Shown: positions 10,720 to 20,359 of the stretch, in pieces
How positions within the stretch are numbered: position 1 is the first letter of the stretch
How the letters are laid out: each line of letters opens with the position of its first letter
DNA from: Rhodohalobacter barkolensis
GTDB taxonomy: Bacteria; Bacteroidota; Rhodothermia; Balneolales; Balneolaceae
Length of the DNA stretch: 64,000 nucleotides
Reading direction: 5' to 3'
Assembly: GCF_002834295.1 (NCBI RefSeq)
Contig: NZ_PISP01000006.1
Location: forward strand, 310,001 to 374,000
The notes under the pieces: generated by a model
The model's input: the letters and a program-made list of their open reading frames with translations, nothing else
Told to the model about the DNA's origin: nothing
The model's database searches: none
Translations under genes and position numbers: made by a program

Positions 10720-12036
10720 TTACTTCAGCCCTAACTTTTGGATCCTTGCCTGAAATTGTTTGATGGCATATTCCAGGAACCACTCTTTCTCTAAACCAAA
10801 AGGGACTTCTTCGTAAGGTTCAAATATTTCGTGAATGATATTTGTGGCGTCATTGAGTAGGGTGGTTAGCTCTTCTTCGGCATAGTGTGTTAACTTGGGA
10901 TTTTCATCAAGTATTCTGTTTATCAGAAATAAACCGTATGCAATGTGACGGGACTCATCCATTTTTAATTTAGTGATACCTTCTCTAAGACCGGGCAAGA
11001 GATCTTCTTTTTCGAGCATATTATAAAAAGCTGCATACCCGGTCTCTGCCAATGTGCCCTCAACAATCATATTATAGGTAATGGATGCTTTTAGTATACT
11101 TTCCGGAGAATTATCAACGTGCAGCTGGGCCATGGCTCGTGGTAATTTTTCGTAGAAGATGACCTTATAAAAGGGTTTATGATATTTTGTCGGATCAGGT
11201 ATCTGATTAAGTACGTTGTTCTTGTAGAGAGAAAAGAATTCAACATGTTTAGCTTCTTCCCATAAAAAAGAGGTCAGATAGATCTCCTCTTCTAACCGTC
11301 CTTCCCTGGCAATAATATTTATTAAGGGAAGTAAGTCTGTAGTAACGGCTTCTTCTCCGGCCATAAAAATTGATATCAAATGATAGATAATCTCCTTTTC
11401 TTCATTGGATAGATTTTTCCAGTGCTCTTTATCAGTAGGCAAATCAATTTCCGATGGATTCCATATCCCAAACTGTTTAGCTTTTTGGAAAAGTTTCATT
11501 GGGAAGGAGTCATGATCCAAACCGGAGGAAGTGGTTTTGTAGTGTGTTTTACTTAAAACCTGCTCAGTTTTATTAACAGGAGAGTGCTCTTTATGCTGAG
11601 TTCCATTTTGAAGTGCAGGTGCGCATTCAATTAAGGTCATCGCAGCTTTTCGCTGAGTGGATAATAAAACCAAGCTTCCTTTTTCTAATTTCACTTTTCC
11701 CATCATGATCTGCTTTGTTGGATCACTTTTTTGTTCAATAAGTTTTATCCATGTTTTTTCTTGAGCTTTTAAAATAATATCTGATATGTCCTCATCTTCT
11801 TTAGTTGCATACCGGATGGATTCACACTTCCCATAATTTAAATCTAAGTAAATCCCTTCAGCCTCAAAATTTTTCAAACGGTCTGGCAGAATGTCAAACT
11901 TTAGAATAACAAACGTATTCCAGTTTTTGCCGTGGTGAGAATAGGTGTCACTCTCATTAAGATTATCTTTCCAATCATTCATCCACTGTTGTGAAAAATA
12001 ACCTGTATCTGTTTGTTTCTTCTTTTTAAACCACAT
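10720..12036 (-). CDS. SCP2 domain fused to R2-like ligand-binding oxidase (R2lox)
   Basis: A ferritin-like di-metal oxidase with an extra N-terminal domain. In the 438-residue product the metal ligands are E228 (AGEEAV), E261/H264 (EEAKH), E326 (VEGTLAE) and E361/H364 (DESRH). V231 and Y321 sit where R2lox proteins form their Val-Tyr ether cross-link. All eight positions are offset by exactly 159 from Geobacillus R2lox numbering as I recall it, so the core has no insertions. Residues ~15-135 resemble an SCP2 sterol/lipid-carrier domain (IKLIEQKSDPTKQIMMGKVKLEKGSL). R2lox proteins bind long-chain fatty acids, so a lipid-oxidising role is plausible; the physiological substrate is unknown. Monocistronic, divergent from mnmG. 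Confidence 0.88.
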   Translation of the reverse strand: MWFKKKKQTDTGYFSQQWMNDWKDNLNESDTYSHHGKNWNTFVILKFDILPDRLKNFEAEGIYLDLNYGKCESIRYATKEDEDISDIILKAQEKTWIKLIEQKSDPTKQIMMGKVKLEKGSLVLLSTQRKAAMTLIECAPALQNGTQHKEHSPVNKTEQVLSKTHYKTTSSGLDHDSFPMKLFQKAKQFGIWNPSEIDLPTDKEHWKNLSNEEKEIIYHLISIFMAGEEAVTTDLLPLINIIAREGRLEEEIYLTSFLWEEAKHVEFFSLYKNNVLNQIPDPTKYHKPFYKVIFYEKLPRAMAQLHVDNSPESILKASITYNMIVEGTLAETGYAAFYNMLEKEDLLPGLREGITKLKMDESRHIAYGLFLINRILDENPKLTHYAEEELTTLLNDATNIIHEIFEPYEEVPFGLEKEWFLEYAIKQFQARIQKLGLK

Positions 12037-12189: not shown

Positions 12190-14079
12190 ATGAATAGTTT
12201 GTATCCCACATATGATGTTATAGTAGTGGGAGCAGGGCACGCAGGCAGTGAAGCTACAGCTGCAGCTGCTAATATGGGAGCGAAAACACTTCTTATTACA
12301 ATGAATTTGGATGCTGTGGCAAAGATGTCATGTAATCCTGCTATGGGAGGAGTCGCTAAAGGTCAGCTGGTTCGAGAGATTGACGCTTTGGGCGGTCAGA
12401 GTGGTATTGTTAGTGATCGCAGTGGAGTACAGTTTAGAATGTTGAATAGAAGTAAGGGACCTGCTATGTGGAGTCCCAGGTGTCAGAGTGATCGATCGCT
12501 CTACTCAAAAATCATGAGAGAGAACCTTGAAAAAATTGATAACCTATTTTTCAGACAAGATAATGTTGTAGACATTCTTACCGACGATGACGGCAAACAT
12601 GTTAAAGGTGTTGTTACTCAAACGGGACAAACTTTTGAATCTAAATCCGTAATTCTAACTAGTGGTACTTTTCTAAATGGAGTGATTCATATTGGTGAGT
12701 CACAATATGGAGGAGGGAGATCCGGAGAAAGGGCTTCTGTAGGAATATCTGCTTCTTTGGAAAAACTTGGTTTTGAAGTGGGTCGGTTAAAAACCGGAAC
12801 ACCACCAAGAATTGACGGCCGGTCTATTGATTATTCAAAACTTGAGATTCAGTATGGAGATGAAGACCCGAGTCCCTTTTCGTTTATGACTGATGAACTG
12901 CCTTCTGTTGATGAACAGTTAACCTGCTGGATCGGATATACAAATGATGAAGTTCATAAGACTTTAGAAACAGGATTTGATCGCAGCCCAATGTTTAATG
13001 GGAGGATCAAATCAGTTGGACCAAGATACTGTCCAAGTATTGAGGACAAGATCAATCGTTTTGCAGATAAGGACAGACACCAACTCTTTTTAGAGCCGGA
13101 AGGGTGGGATACATATGAAATGTATTTGAATGGATTTTCTACATCATTACCGGAAGATGTTCAGTATCATGCACTGAGAACAATTCCCGGTTTTGAAAAC
13201 GCAGTAATGCTTCGTCCCGGGTATGCAATTGAGTACGACTATTTTCCACCATACCAGGTAAAGCGAAGCCTGGAAACGAAAAGAGTAAACGGACTTTTCT
13301 TTGCGGGACAAATTAATGGAACAACGGGATACGAAGAGGCTGCTTGTCAGGGGTTGATTGCGGGAATAAATTCTGCCCTCTTTATTAAGGGTGAGGATCC
13401 ATTTGTAATAAAAAGATCGGAAGGGTATATCGGAGTTTTGATTGATGATTTAATCAATAAAGGTACCGAGGAACCTTATCGAATGTTCACCTCAAGAGCT
13501 GAACACCGAATATTGCTTCGCCAGGATAATGCAGACCTTCGTTTAACTGAATTGGGTAAACGTATTGGCTTAGTTACTGATGAGCGATATGAACGATTTA
13601 AAACAAAAAAGGATGAAATTGATCGTCTGTTTGATCTGATTGAGAATTATACGGTTCGCCCAGAAAAGATGGATCCGATGCTTGAGGGGAAGGGCACTAC
13701 AAAACTGTCTCAACCGGTAAAAGCAAAAACGCTTATTCCGCGACCCCAACTACATCTTCAGGATTTATTGGATGCGGATGAAGAACTGAAAGGGCTAGTA
13801 TCCAAGATCACGGAAAACCAAGAAGTTCTTGAGCAGGTGGAGATTCAGATCAAGTATGATGGATACATTAAAAGAGAATTTGAGATGGTTGAAGAAGTGA
13901 GTAAGCAGGAGAATACATCTATCCCGGATAAAGTAGATTATCATAAAATCAAAAGTTTATCATCTGAAGGACAAAGTAAGCTCAGCAAAATCAAACCCGA
14001 AACGATCGGTCAGGCATCCAGAATCAGCGGTGTATCTGCAAGCGATGTTGCTGTACTAATGGTCTATTTGAAAAATTAA
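12190..14079 (+). CDS. mnmG: tRNA uridine-5-carboxymethylaminomethyl modification enzyme MnmG (GidA)
   Basis: FAD-dependent enzyme that, with MnmE, modifies U34 of tRNAs reading NNA/NNG codons. The 629-residue protein begins with the FAD-binding [10 protein letters not shown], then has the family blocks [25 protein letters not shown] and [11 protein letters not shown]. The [13 protein letters not shown] and [20 protein letters not shown] motifs and the C-terminal helical domain also match. Length is standard. It is followed 10 bases later by rsmG; the junction contains a parS site. mnmG-rsmG (gidAB) is a frequent origin-proximal pair. Confidence 0.97.
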
Positions 14080-14081
14080 CA

Positions 14082-14097
14082 GGTTTCACGTGAAACA
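14082..14097. promoter_or_regulatory. parS site, 15 of 16 matches (mnmG-rsmG junction)
   Basis: GGTTTCACGTGAAACA matches the ParB-binding consensus TGTTTCACGTGAAACA at 15 of 16 positions; the 14-base core is a perfect palindrome. It spans the mnmG-rsmG gap and includes the GTG start of rsmG. Confidence 0.88.
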
Positions 14098-14722
14098 TTC
14101 TATAAAAGAAATCACTGTAAACAAGAATATTTTACGGGAAGCGCGGGAGTTGTATCAAAAAAACGAGCCGCTTTTAGAGTCCTACCTGGATGAACTGCTT
14201 GATTGGAATCAAAAAATTAACTTAGTTAGCCGCAGTGTTTCACGTGAAACAGTGAGAGAACACGTGGTTCATTCGTTGATACCGGTTGTTTTGGGGTTGA
14301 TGGGTGATATTGAAGAGTGGATTGATTCCGGTACGGGTGGGGGCTTACCGGGTATACCTTTGAGTATCGTGCTAAATGAAAAGACATTTTGGTTGAATGA
14401 TAATGTGAAAAAGAAAGTGATGGCTGTATCCGGTATCGTGGACGCTTTGGGTTTAGAGAATGTTAAGACGTTGCCCAAAAGCATTTCACTGGTTGGATTA
14501 AAAACCGGGACCGGAATTGTAACCAAACATGCGTTTAAAATTGGCGATTTGCTGCGTCTTACAAAAAAGAAGCCGTGGAAAAAGATCATCATGTGGAAGG
14601 GGATTGAGGGGGCGAAAGAAGAAATAAAACGGATCCACTCGAACATAGAGTGCACACTCTATTCATTTAACTTCGGTGAAGAGTTTTACGAAGGGAAAGG
14701 ATTAGTTGTGCTGGAAAAGTAA
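14090..14722 (+). CDS. rsmG: 16S rRNA (guanine-N7) methyltransferase RsmG (GidB)
   Basis: SAM-dependent enzyme that methylates G527 of 16S rRNA; loss gives low-level streptomycin resistance in other bacteria. The 210-residue protein has the family opening LDELLDWNQKINLVSRSVSRETVREHVVHSL and the SAM-binding segment IDSGTGGGLPGIPLS. The GTG at 14090 is chosen because it lies 10 bases after mnmG and no in-frame ATG precedes the conserved core. This start codon lies inside one parS site and residues SVSRET are encoded by a second, perfect parS site. Confidence 0.93.
   Translation: MKHSIKEITVNKNILREARELYQKNEPLLESYLDELLDWNQKINLVSRSVSRETVREHVVHSLIPVVLGLMGDIEEWIDSGTGGGLPGIPLSIVLNEKTFWLNDNVKKKVMAVSGIVDALGLENVKTLPKSISLVGLKTGTGIVTKHAFKIGDLLRLTKKKPWKKIIMWKGIEGAKEEIKRIHSNIECTLYSFNFGEEFYEGKGLVVLEK
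14236..14251. promoter_or_regulatory. parS site, perfect consensus (inside rsmG)
   Basis: TGTTTCACGTGAAACA is the exact palindromic ParB-binding consensus. It is read in frame as V-S-R-E-T in rsmG, a position where the RsmG sequence is compatible with carrying the site. Confidence 0.92.
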
Positions 14723-14848
14723 AATAACCCCTTTCTTTTTCAGTGATTGTAGCCCATCTTTAAGAACGAAATTCATAATGAATTGTTTACATTTTCTGTT
14801 TGTGAAGCCGACCAAAATTTAAAATATCATCAATCGAAGCAGTGCGAT

Positions 14849-15802
14849 ATGTCTAGATTAAAAAGTTCCGAAAGACGACTGAAGCTGATATTAATGCTGC
14901 AGGAATCAAAGAAAAAACTCACAGTGAATGATCTTGCCGAAACTTTTGGAGTAAGCCGCAGAACAATATTCAGAGATTTTAATTTTTTATCGGACATCAA
15001 TGTGCCCGTTACCTGGGATGAGTACAGCGGTTATGGAGTCATTGAAGGATATAAAATACCTCCACTGATGTTCAACTCAAGAGAGCTTGCGACAATTATG
15101 GTGGGTTTGAATTTTGTGAAGTCGCAAATTGATAAAAATCTTGTAGATGACGCCAAAGGTGTGGAATTAAAGATAAAAAACGTTTTACCTGATGATTTAA
15201 AAGAATTTATGAAATCCCTGGATAACCGAACGGTTGTTGATCCTTTTCTTCACTTTGGTGCCGAAAAAAAGGAGGGAGGAAATTGGTACTTGGTGAGCAG
15301 CGCTATATCTCAATCTAAAAGTATTGAGTTTACCTATCACAGTAAAAAAGATGGGAGTGTGACCGGAAGAAAAATCGATCCATATCTTTTAGTTTTCTAT
15401 CGAGATCATTGGAATGTAATCGGGTATTCACACAAAAGAGAGGCTATTCGTAATTTTGTACTCGATAGAATGGAAAACGTGAAAATTTTAGACCAAAATT
15501 TTAAACTGGAGAAAGAAATTGACGTAGAGGGGTTAATTTTTAATTCTAACGAGTCTGGCGAAAAAATCAGGGTAGTACTCGATAAATCCGCAGAACGCCC
15601 GTTTAAAGCCAATCTGCCAACAAAAATATTTAAGGAAACCGGCGTTGATTCTAAAAAAATTAAGGTGGAGTTTAATTTTGAAAATCTTGACTATATCAAC
15701 GAATGGTTGCTTCAATTTGGAGATAAGGTAGAAGTGCAGAGTCCGAAAGAGTTAATTCAAAAGAGAAAAGCTTTGCTGAAAACTATGTTGAAAAATTTAT
15801 AA
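14849..15802 (+). CDS. HTH/WYL-domain transcriptional regulator
   Basis: A 317-residue regulator with an N-terminal DeoR-like winged helix (residues ~1-60; LTVNDLAETFGVSRRTIFRDFNFL) and a WYL domain (~130-225; SKSIEFTYHSKKDG, RKIDPYLLVFYRDHWNVIGY and a conserved RNFVLDRM). It ends in a C-terminal extension (WCX). WYL domains bind nucleic-acid or nucleotide ligands in other systems, such as DNA-damage and phage-defence regulators; the target here is unknown. The ATG at 14849 is preferred over an upstream TTG because the fold starts immediately after it. It is a single gene with a terminator shared with gyrA. Confidence 0.88.
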   Translation: MSRLKSSERRLKLILMLQESKKKLTVNDLAETFGVSRRTIFRDFNFLSDINVPVTWDEYSGYGVIEGYKIPPLMFNSRELATIMVGLNFVKSQIDKNLVDDAKGVELKIKNVLPDDLKEFMKSLDNRTVVDPFLHFGAEKKEGGNWYLVSSAISQSKSIEFTYHSKKDGSVTGRKIDPYLLVFYRDHWNVIGYSHKREAIRNFVLDRMENVKILDQNFKLEKEIDVEGLIFNSNESGEKIRVVLDKSAERPFKANLPTKIFKETGVDSKKIKVEFNFENLDYINEWLLQFGDKVEVQSPKELIQKRKALLKTMLKNL

Positions 15803-15882: not shown

Positions 15883-18357
15883 TTATTCGACTGAAGGTGC
15901 GTCTTCCTCTGAAGTTTCCTCCTCATTGACTACGCGTGTTACAGCAGCAATTTTGCCGTCTTCATCAAGTCGCATAATTCGCACGCCCTGAGTATTTCGG
16001 CCCATGGTTCGGATTCCTTTACACTGCATTCGAATAATTTTTCCACGCTCGGTAATCACCATCAGGTCATCTTTGTCTGACACTTCTTTGAGTGCAATAA
16101 GATCCCCGGTTTTCGGAGTCACCTTCAATGTAATGACACCTTTTCCGCCACGGCTTTGCTCCCTGTAATCATCAACAAGAGAACGTTTTCCGTAACCATT
16201 TTCTGAGATGGCCAGGACAGTTGCTTCATGTGTATTTTTGATAACAACCATATCAACCAGTTCATCACCTTTGTTGAGGTTCATTCCACGAACACCGGAA
16301 GTGTTTCGACCCATCTCGCGTGCTTCTTCCTCGTGGAAACGAATCGCGCGTCCTGACTTGTTGGCCAGAATAATATTACTTTCCCCATCAGTCAGAGCTG
16401 CTTCGAGCAGGCTGTCATCATCTTTAATGTTGATAGCGATAATTCCGTCTCGGCGTGGTCGGCTATAAGCTTCTAAAGAGGTTTTCTTAACCTGACCCTG
16501 TTTTGTTGACATTATAATAGAGTGAGATTTGATGTACTCCTCATCATCCAATGTCTTAACAGGAACAAACGTTTTTATGCTGTCATCTTTTTCAATATCA
16601 ATCAGGTTCACAATTGCACGTCCCCGGGCAAGTCTGGATCCTTCAGGAATTTCGTAAACCTTCAACCAGTAACAGTTACCCTTTTCTGTGAAGAACAGGA
16701 TATAGTTATGGTTTGTGGCAACAAACAGATGTTCTACATATTCATCATCCTTGGTAGTTGTGCCCTTCATTCCCTTTCCACCGCGTCGTTGTCGGCGATA
16801 ACCGCTAACCGGCATACGTTTAATGAAACCCTTATTGGAAATGGTAACAACCACATCCTCATCGGCAATCATATCCTCAATATTGAAATCATCGGCAGAG
16901 TATACAATCTGGGTTCGTCTTTCATCTCCGTAACGACCTTTCAATTCGAGCAGCTCTTTTTTGATGATTTCATTTTGTTCATCACGATTAGAAAGAATTT
17001 CTCTGTAATCGGATATCTGAGATGCAATATCCCGATACTCAGTATCGATTTTGTCTCTTTCAAGTCCGGTTAGTTTCTGAAGGCGCATATCCAGAATAGC
17101 TTTTGCCTGAATGTCGGTCAGTGCAAACTTGCGGCGTAACTCCTCATTAGCTTCCTGGGGATTCTTAGATGCTCGAATTGTCTTAATTACTTCATCAAGA
17201 TTATCGAGAGCAATTTTAAGACCTTCCAGAATGTGCGCGCGAGCTTCGGCCTGATCTAAATCATAAATCGTACGTCGTATAATTACTTCAACACGATGCT
17301 CAATGAACCTAGTTATTAACTCTTTGAGCGACATAACCTTAGGCCGCCCTTTAACAAGTGCAAGATTAATCACACCAAAAGTTTGCTGCATCTGCGTGTA
17401 CTTGTAAAGCTGGTTAAGTACAACTCCTGCATTAGCACTACGCTTAAGAATAATTACGATTCTCATTCCTTCGCGATCAGATTCATCACGGATTTCAGAG
17501 ATTTCTGTAATCTTTTCATCACCAACAAGCTGGGCAACTTTTTGAATCAGAGTTGCTTTATTAACCTGATAAGGAATTTCAGTTACTACGATCTGTTCCC
17601 TGGAATTCCTGAGCTCTTCTACATTTGCACGGGCACGCATTGTTATTTTTCCGCGACCGGTAGAATAGGCTTCCTTGACACCTTCATAGCCATAGATAAT
17701 ACCGCCGGTTGGAAAGTCAGGAGCTGTGATATGCTTCATCAGCTCTTCTGTTTCAATATCGGGATTATCAATTACAGCAACTGTTCCATCAATAACTTCA
17801 GTTATATTATGAGGAGCCATGTTGGTGGCCATACCAACTGCGATACCGGATGCACCATTTAACAGAAGGTTGGGCAACATTGCCGGCAGTACAGTAGGTT
17901 CGGTGAGTGTATCATCAAAATTGGTTTGATAATCCACGGTCTCTTTGTTGATGTCTGCCAGAAGTTCTTCAGCAATCCGCTGCATTCGAACCTCAGTGTA
18001 ACGCATCGCTGCGGCAGAATCACCATCAATTGAACCAAAATTGCCCTGTCCGTTAACGAGCGGATACCGAAGAGAAAACTCCTGTACCATTCGCACAATA
18101 GAATCATAAACTGCGGAATCACCGTGTGGATGATACTTACCAAGAACTTCACCTACTATACGTGCACTCTTTTTAAAATTTCGATTATGCAGCATACCAA
18201 GATCACTCATACCGTAAAGGATCCGCCGGTGAACAGGTTTTAATCCGTCCCTAACGTCAGGTAATGCACGAGATACAATCACGGACATCGAATAATCGAT
18301 GTAGGATGATTGCATTTCATCTTCAATTGAAATAGGTATAATTTTTTCTGTAGCCAT
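15883..18357 (-). CDS. gyrA: DNA gyrase subunit A
   Basis: Breakage-reunion subunit of DNA gyrase, which introduces negative supercoils. The 824-residue protein has [21 protein letters not shown], the quinolone-region [16 protein letters not shown] with wild-type-like Ser and acidic neighbour, and AMRYTEVRM with the active-site tyrosine. The gyrase-specific QRRGGKG box identifies it as GyrA and not ParC, and six-bladed C-terminal beta-pinwheel repeats follow. It ends in an acidic tail ([13 protein letters not shown]). It lies 28 bases downstream of gyrB on the same strand, so the two form a gyrBA unit. Confidence 0.97.
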
Positions 18358-18385
18358 GAATCAGTTTTATCAGATGAATATTTTC

Positions 18386-20359
<1,974 letters not shown>

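Follow-up and report, generated by a model that had tools for sequence, protein, structure and literature searches.

Two 16-bp palindromes in rsmG of Rhodohalobacter barkolensis are, with high confidence from their sequence, the sites at which ParB of the chromosomal ParABS system would be loaded (parS). Together they would constitute the whole recognisable centromere of the chromosome, served in trans by a parAB operon that lies far away. This reading is supported by the canonical sequence of the sites, their uniqueness in the genome, a predicted replication origin nearby, a ParB of the parS-binding type, and a conservation throughout the family Balneolaceae that stands out against the codon pattern.

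In the proposed mechanism, ParB produced from the distant parAB operon would bind each palindrome and close with CTP into a clamp, which would then slide outward across the mnmG-rsmG-gyrAB region. In this way ParA, and perhaps condensin, would be able to grasp the origin, about 18 kb distant, soon after its replication. As the sites lie within the reading frame of rsmG, the gene spells parS twice, at the start codon and in an internal loop. We infer ParB binding, clamp loading and segregation at these sites from what is known of ParABS systems. In Thermus, parABS is described as seemingly without a role in segregation although parS binds ParB (PMC7022226); conservation of a parS does not by itself imply that it drives segregation. 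Elsewhere, one origin-proximal parS can be enough (PMC7022226).

The two palindromes, their gene and their conservation

The window, i.e., the whole stretch of 64,000 nucleotides that was analysed, corresponds to C6:310001-374000 of an assembly of 3,597,295 bases in 7 contigs, all of which was searched. As the preliminary description had it, two 16-mers, differing from TGTTTCACGTGAAACA at one position and at none, were present with their starts 154 bp apart, the first covering the rsmG start (GTG, 14090-14092) and the second coding for V-S-R-E-T in frame (GTT TCA CGT GAA ACA). This GTG is the earliest ATG, GTG or TTG of the rsmG frame, with none upstream. The features are listed in Table 1. 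Both sites are 16-bp palindromes agreeing with the consensus TGTTNCACGTGAAACA, and they form the small group near the origin that is typical of parS, two copies within 170 bp at 18.4 kb from the predicted oriC.

Table 1. Features of the window at and around the two sites (positions are those of the window).
Feature	Position	Strand	Evidence and remarks
mnmG (gidA)	12190..14079	+	TIGR00136, 867 bits; 10 bp upstream of rsmG
parS site 1	14082..14097	.	GGTTTCACGTGAAACA; rsmG starts within it (GTG)
rsmG (gidB)	14090..14722	+	210 aa; hosts both sites; TIGR00138, 76.9 bits, cut-off 99.5
parS site 2	14236..14251	.	TGTTTCACGTGAAACA; in frame V-S-R-E-T, RsmG residues 50-54
Helix-turn-helix regulator	14783-15802		After rsmG; weak family matches only
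gyrA	15883..18357	-	NF004043, 1230.5 bits; origin-region context
gyrB	18386..20326	-	TIGR01059, 981.8 bits; origin-region context

At one mismatch or less, the two sites were the only parS matches in the whole 3.6-Mb genome. Allowing two mismatches added TGTTTCAATTGAAACA alone, located on contig C2 and changed at its centre, while the reversed pattern used as a control gave one match genome-wide at the same threshold. By chance, 3.6 Mb at 43% GC would be expected to hold about 0.06 sites with one mismatch or none, and only about 1.6e-7 pairs within 154 bp, which agrees with the earlier statement that such a pair is very unlikely to be accidental. When the window itself was shuffled, 0.56 matches were expected at up to three mismatches and 10 of 100 shuffles gave two. 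This window-only statistic is weak alone and was replaced by the genome-wide and family-wide counts.

The RsmG protein matched the RsmG structures of E. coli, B. subtilis and Thermus weakly. RsmG of the Balneolaceae is divergent, the score of 76.9 bits against TIGR00138 lying under the curated NCBIfam cut-off of 99.5. Canonical RsmG carries S-R-A-F/V where nearly all of the Balneolaceae members shown have S/T-K-H-A-F-K, and judging from these sequences the methyltransferase activity of Balneolaceae RsmG may differ from the canonical one. The genes mnmG and rsmG are probably carried on one transcript. It had been noted that neither parA nor parB follows rsmG, and indeed the helix-turn-helix regulator, gyrA and gyrB were found there instead; the nearby gyrB and gyrA (15883-20326, minus strand) were likewise as described. 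On the other side of mnmG, an R2-like ligand-binding oxidase (10720-12036, minus strand) has about 160 extra N-terminal residues beyond the family model.

Conservation was assessed in 92 Balneolaceae genomes. rsmG was detected in 85 of them, and all 85 genes, including that of the window, were examined. A parS match with at most one mismatch was present in 82 of the 92 genomes, as compared to five for the reversed pattern. Among the ten genomes without such a match, seven assemblies (G051, G053, G057, G069, G070, G072, and G076) also lacked rsmG, though ParB was found in six of these, and the remaining three (G014, G019, and G020) had weaker variants. At up to three mismatches, 68 of the 85 rsmG genes had two sites and 17 had three, amounting to 187 sites in total. 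All sites of the 41 genomes with listed places were located at rsmG, except for one with an altered centre in G025; this solitary TGTTTCAAGTGAAACA outside rsmG (C2:108463-108478) probably arose by chance.

Site 1 was in the start frame, with the in-frame GTG kept, in 74 of the 85 genes; a start-frame site was absent from the other 11. No further in-frame ATG, GTG or TTG was present upstream in 35 of these 74 genes, and in 39 an alternative start three codons upstream overlapped parS bases 1-2. The distance between the start site and the final VSRET site was 130, 148, 151, 154, 157 or 163, always 3n+1, and the later site read V-S/P-R/H-E-T in the family. The nearest named relative by RsmG, a Balneolaceae MAG with 60% identity, holds perfect sites in both places. 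An IUPAC pattern of the pair, searched in 244 genomes of the class (92 + 36 + 116), was found in 73 of the 92 Balneolaceae, in none of the 36 genomes from the other families of the order, and in 11 of the 116 from the rest of the class. In four loci (L080, L085, L086, and L087, from G034 and G039-G041), the centres of the sites were changed, with CATGTG in site 1 and CACATG in site 2, and the two variant sites of G039, G040, and G041 are exact reverse complements.

Known systems and possible control of rsmG

A parS in or at gidB (rsmG) is of an already known kind, having been described in Thermus (PMC4409726) and mycobacteria (PMC2346475). In Thermus thermophilus HB27, parSc likewise lies in gidB and is reported as the sole chromosomal parS. 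However, parAB directly follow gidB there (PMC4409726), whereas they are remote in the Balneolaceae, which in addition have two or three sites, one of them holding the start codon in most members. According to PMC2346475, M. bovis BCG and M. smegmatis likewise have just two parS, one of them at gidB, and in M. bovis BCG this site overlaps the -10 box of a gidB promoter. The second mycobacterial parS is in the coding sequence of parA, and gidB, parA, and parB are neighbours close to the origin in Mycobacterium (PMC2346475), whereas here both sites are in rsmG and parAB are found elsewhere. In Pseudomonas aeruginosa, parS1-4 are likewise clustered near the origin, some of them within genes, and the intergenic ones regulate promoters (PMC5521831), whereas no promoter is evident in the present case.

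Within the openly licensed literature, our searches yielded no account of a centromere that throughout a family is restricted to rsmG, contains the start codon of this gene and is distant from parAB. The parS survey of Livny et al. from 2007 may include gidB sites, and we therefore claim no priority.

The start codon within site 1, with mnmG ending just upstream, could mean that ParB bound there also represses or otherwise modulates expression of the gene and thereby links methylation of 16S rRNA to the copy number of the origin or to the level of ParB. There are precedents, as ParB of P. aeruginosa represses promoters beside the intergenic parS3 and parS4 (PMC5521831), and such control has been proposed for gidB of M. 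bovis BCG, where parS covers the promoter -10 box (PMC2346475). Nevertheless, we consider this additional role unlikely. Promoter-like sites around rsmG numbered 7 as opposed to 7.9 in shuffles, and nothing above shuffles was seen between mnmG and rsmG, so ParB would need to act as a roadblock. Furthermore, the intragenic parS1 and parS2 of P. aeruginosa were without effect at the native ParB level (PMC5521831), and the 11 family genes (of 85) that have no start-frame site also speak against it.

Control could also be exerted in the mRNA, if the two palindromes paired with each other in the rsmG transcript (14-bp helix, ~140 nt), hiding the GUG start and lowering translation. The helix is indeed part of the minimum-energy fold of 14050-14290, at least eight pairs between site 1 and site 2 occurred in the minimum-energy folds of 55 of 74 genes, and the exact reverse complementarity of the variant sites in G039, G040, and G041 also speaks for it. 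On the other hand, complementarity is automatic for any two copies of one palindrome, the fold beat the shuffles modestly (z -1.46, with 16 of 200 shuffles equally good), and 47 of 1184 cells were mismatched, in a comparison where the shuffle test ignores relatedness. We regard control of rsmG by such pairing as quite improbable. A combined reading, in which parS and rsmG are welded together, appears to us similarly doubtful. Here, more than common descent would keep the pair in rsmG, since access to the start codon would be controlled by ParB occupancy or by pairing of the palindromes in the transcript; methylation would track the origin or ParB, and a terminus-ward parAB would act in trans.

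DNA or peptide as the target of selection

V-S-R-E-T and the N-terminal [M]KH could alternatively be conserved peptide motifs of RsmG, the parS match being a by-product. The sites are in frame, and V, E, and T are near-invariant (82-83 of 85), as would be expected of a peptide motif. However, the codons of site 2 are frozen in the family (GTT in 82/83, TCA in 75/75, CGT in 76/77, and GAA in 82/82), while they are free at equally conserved residues nearby: the median normalised codon entropy was 0.91 over 74 conserved RsmG columns, and all six codons are used for the invariant Arg four residues before site 2.

The same contrast was seen within the sites. In the 113 sites read as VSRET, 3 of 452 bases were changed at the wobble positions 4, 7, 10, and 13, as against 27 of 339 at the amino-acid-changing positions 5, 9, and 12 (p = 9e-8, a value inflated since the sequences are related and not independent). 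The replacements S->P, R->H, and E->G fall at positions that the palindrome can tolerate, while the wobble bases stay. The outermost base, position 16, which is also a wobble position, varied in 24 of the 113 sites. Considering all 187 sites, positions 2, 3, 6, 7, 11, 13, 14, and 15 were invariant, and the variation was symmetric with respect to the palindrome, affecting the outer bases, 5/12, and 8/9. The base left degenerate in the published consensus TGTTNCACGTGAAACA (PMC7022226) is among those varying here.

Relatives also hold the site in another frame, where it reads F-H-V-K, or elsewhere in the gene. In genus g19, the second site is inside an RsmG insertion, and in G083 and G087 the usual loop site is missing, one site being near the N-terminus and one in the insertion. 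Moreover, genomes without rsmG had no parS match, and only one match among the listed places was outside rsmG. The frozen codons beside varying neighbours, together with sites that shift place and frame between relatives, indicate that the DNA and not the peptide is selected. From the aligned sequences, the constraint follows the palindrome rather than the codons or the peptide. The protein-motif reading, which we hold to be very improbable, was dropped on the codon evidence, and V-S-R-E-T in RsmG should not be taken as a protein motif. With parS as the selected element, a centromere has been kept within a reading frame family-wide, and the protein sequence, the start codon and the choice of codons appear bent to the DNA site.

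Origin, ParB and the range beyond the family

The preliminary description had assigned the pair to an origin-proximal region. This is borne out by a predicted oriC 18.4 kb upstream of parS, near the GC-skew minimum and just outside the window. The cumulative GC skew of contig C6 has its minimum at 298,953, and eight DnaA-box-like 9-mers (at most one mismatch) lie in 350 bp of AT-rich DNA at C6:305319-305670, about 4.3-4.7 kb before position 1 of the window (L075). No larger DnaA-box cluster was found on the 390-kb contig C6, and the only other cluster of at least four boxes on it is upstream of dnaA (152 kb). The ORF adjoining the predicted oriC is presumably a D-aminoacyl-tRNA deacylase.

In contrast, the proposed check for dnaA and parAB within about 100 kb had a negative outcome, as dnaA is 172 kb from parS and parAB are far off on another contig, C1. 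The predicted oriC is 153 kb from dnaA. In the ten genomes with dnaA and rsmG on one contig, that of the window included, the distance between the two was 172-736 kb (G041 the shorter way), and dnaA was rejected as an origin marker because the skew minimum is elsewhere. In two single-contig relatives, the coarse skew flips sign away from dnaA, at 207-374 kb in G041, whose parS is at 349 kb, and around 950-970 kb in G003, whose parS is at 930 kb. Of six extra genomes, four (G003, G023, G040, and G041) had DnaA-box clusters 21-29 kb from parS, while G009 and G065 had none in the 60 kb upstream of rsmG. The parS of rsmG could provide a simple origin finder for a poorly studied group.

The genome has a single ParB_N-family gene, which adjoins parA on contig C1 and is separated from the nearer contig end by at least 307 kb. 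The ORF directly upstream of parB begins with a ParA-like motif, and the same pair was present in all 20 relatives fetched. No parS-like site (up to three mismatches) was found within about 3 kb around parAB in any of these 20 relatives. Only three family genomes carry parAB and parS on one contig, the distance from parB to parS being 1.28 Mb in G003, 1.36 Mb in G041 (both the shorter way), and 1.44 Mb in G023. From the coarse skew we calculate that parB in G003 and G041 is at about 70-75% of the arm length. The usual, though not defining, arrangement of parAB next to parS and oriC is therefore absent here, whereas parAB are origin-proximal in most bacteria (PMC7022226). The parts of the ParABS system appear to be separated, with parS at the origin and, in two genomes assembled as one contig, parAB in the half of the arm nearer the terminus, and this bears on whether ParB needs to be synthesised beside its site.

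ParB was found in 89 of the 92 Balneolaceae genomes and in all 42 other genomes of the order and class. In those 42, where ParB shared a contig with a listed parS, the smallest distance was about 72 kb (G236). The CTP motif GERR was present in all 21 aligned ParBs, that of R. barkolensis included. All 21 also carry the Arg and Gly of parS-type ParB (R173/G201 of Caulobacter ParB), as defined in PMC7383237.

That the two sites are instead Noc-binding (NBS-type) sites serving nucleoid occlusion is hardly conceivable. Noc, a paralogue of ParB, does recognise similar DNA (PMC7383237), and the top PDB matches of the R. barkolensis ParB by sequence are Noc structures. However, Noc sites are reported genome-wide (PMC7383237) while here there are two, near the origin, the ParB carries Arg and Gly at the positions taken in Noc by Gln and Arg, and the genome has just one ParB_N-family gene. 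The Gln/Lys/Lys/Arg recognition residues and chromosome-wide sites of a Noc/NBS system were not found.

Outside the family, a parS match was present in 19 of the 23 genomes of the order that were searched. In all 17 order loci fetched, the rsmG ORF contained one or more in-frame parS, in varied places and frames, and four of these loci (L191-L194) had their other site about 1 kb past rsmG. In the class beyond the order, 26 of 30 genomes had a parS match; taking one parS locus per genome, mnmG or rsmG was nearby in 12 of the 26, and among three additional class loci two had parS in rsmG and one did not. On these sequences, the location of parS in rsmG is firm within the order and mixed beyond it. 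The ancestral order was likely mnmG-rsmG-parA-parB, from which parAB would have moved off while parS remained in rsmG. The order mnmG-rsmG-parA-parB is found in the Bacillota loci L013, L018, and L019, and gidB-parA is described for Thermus (PMC4409726). Two further loci of the class, L221 and L222 (G165 and G167, family f16), have two parS clusters about 5 kb apart, with three sites in the first.
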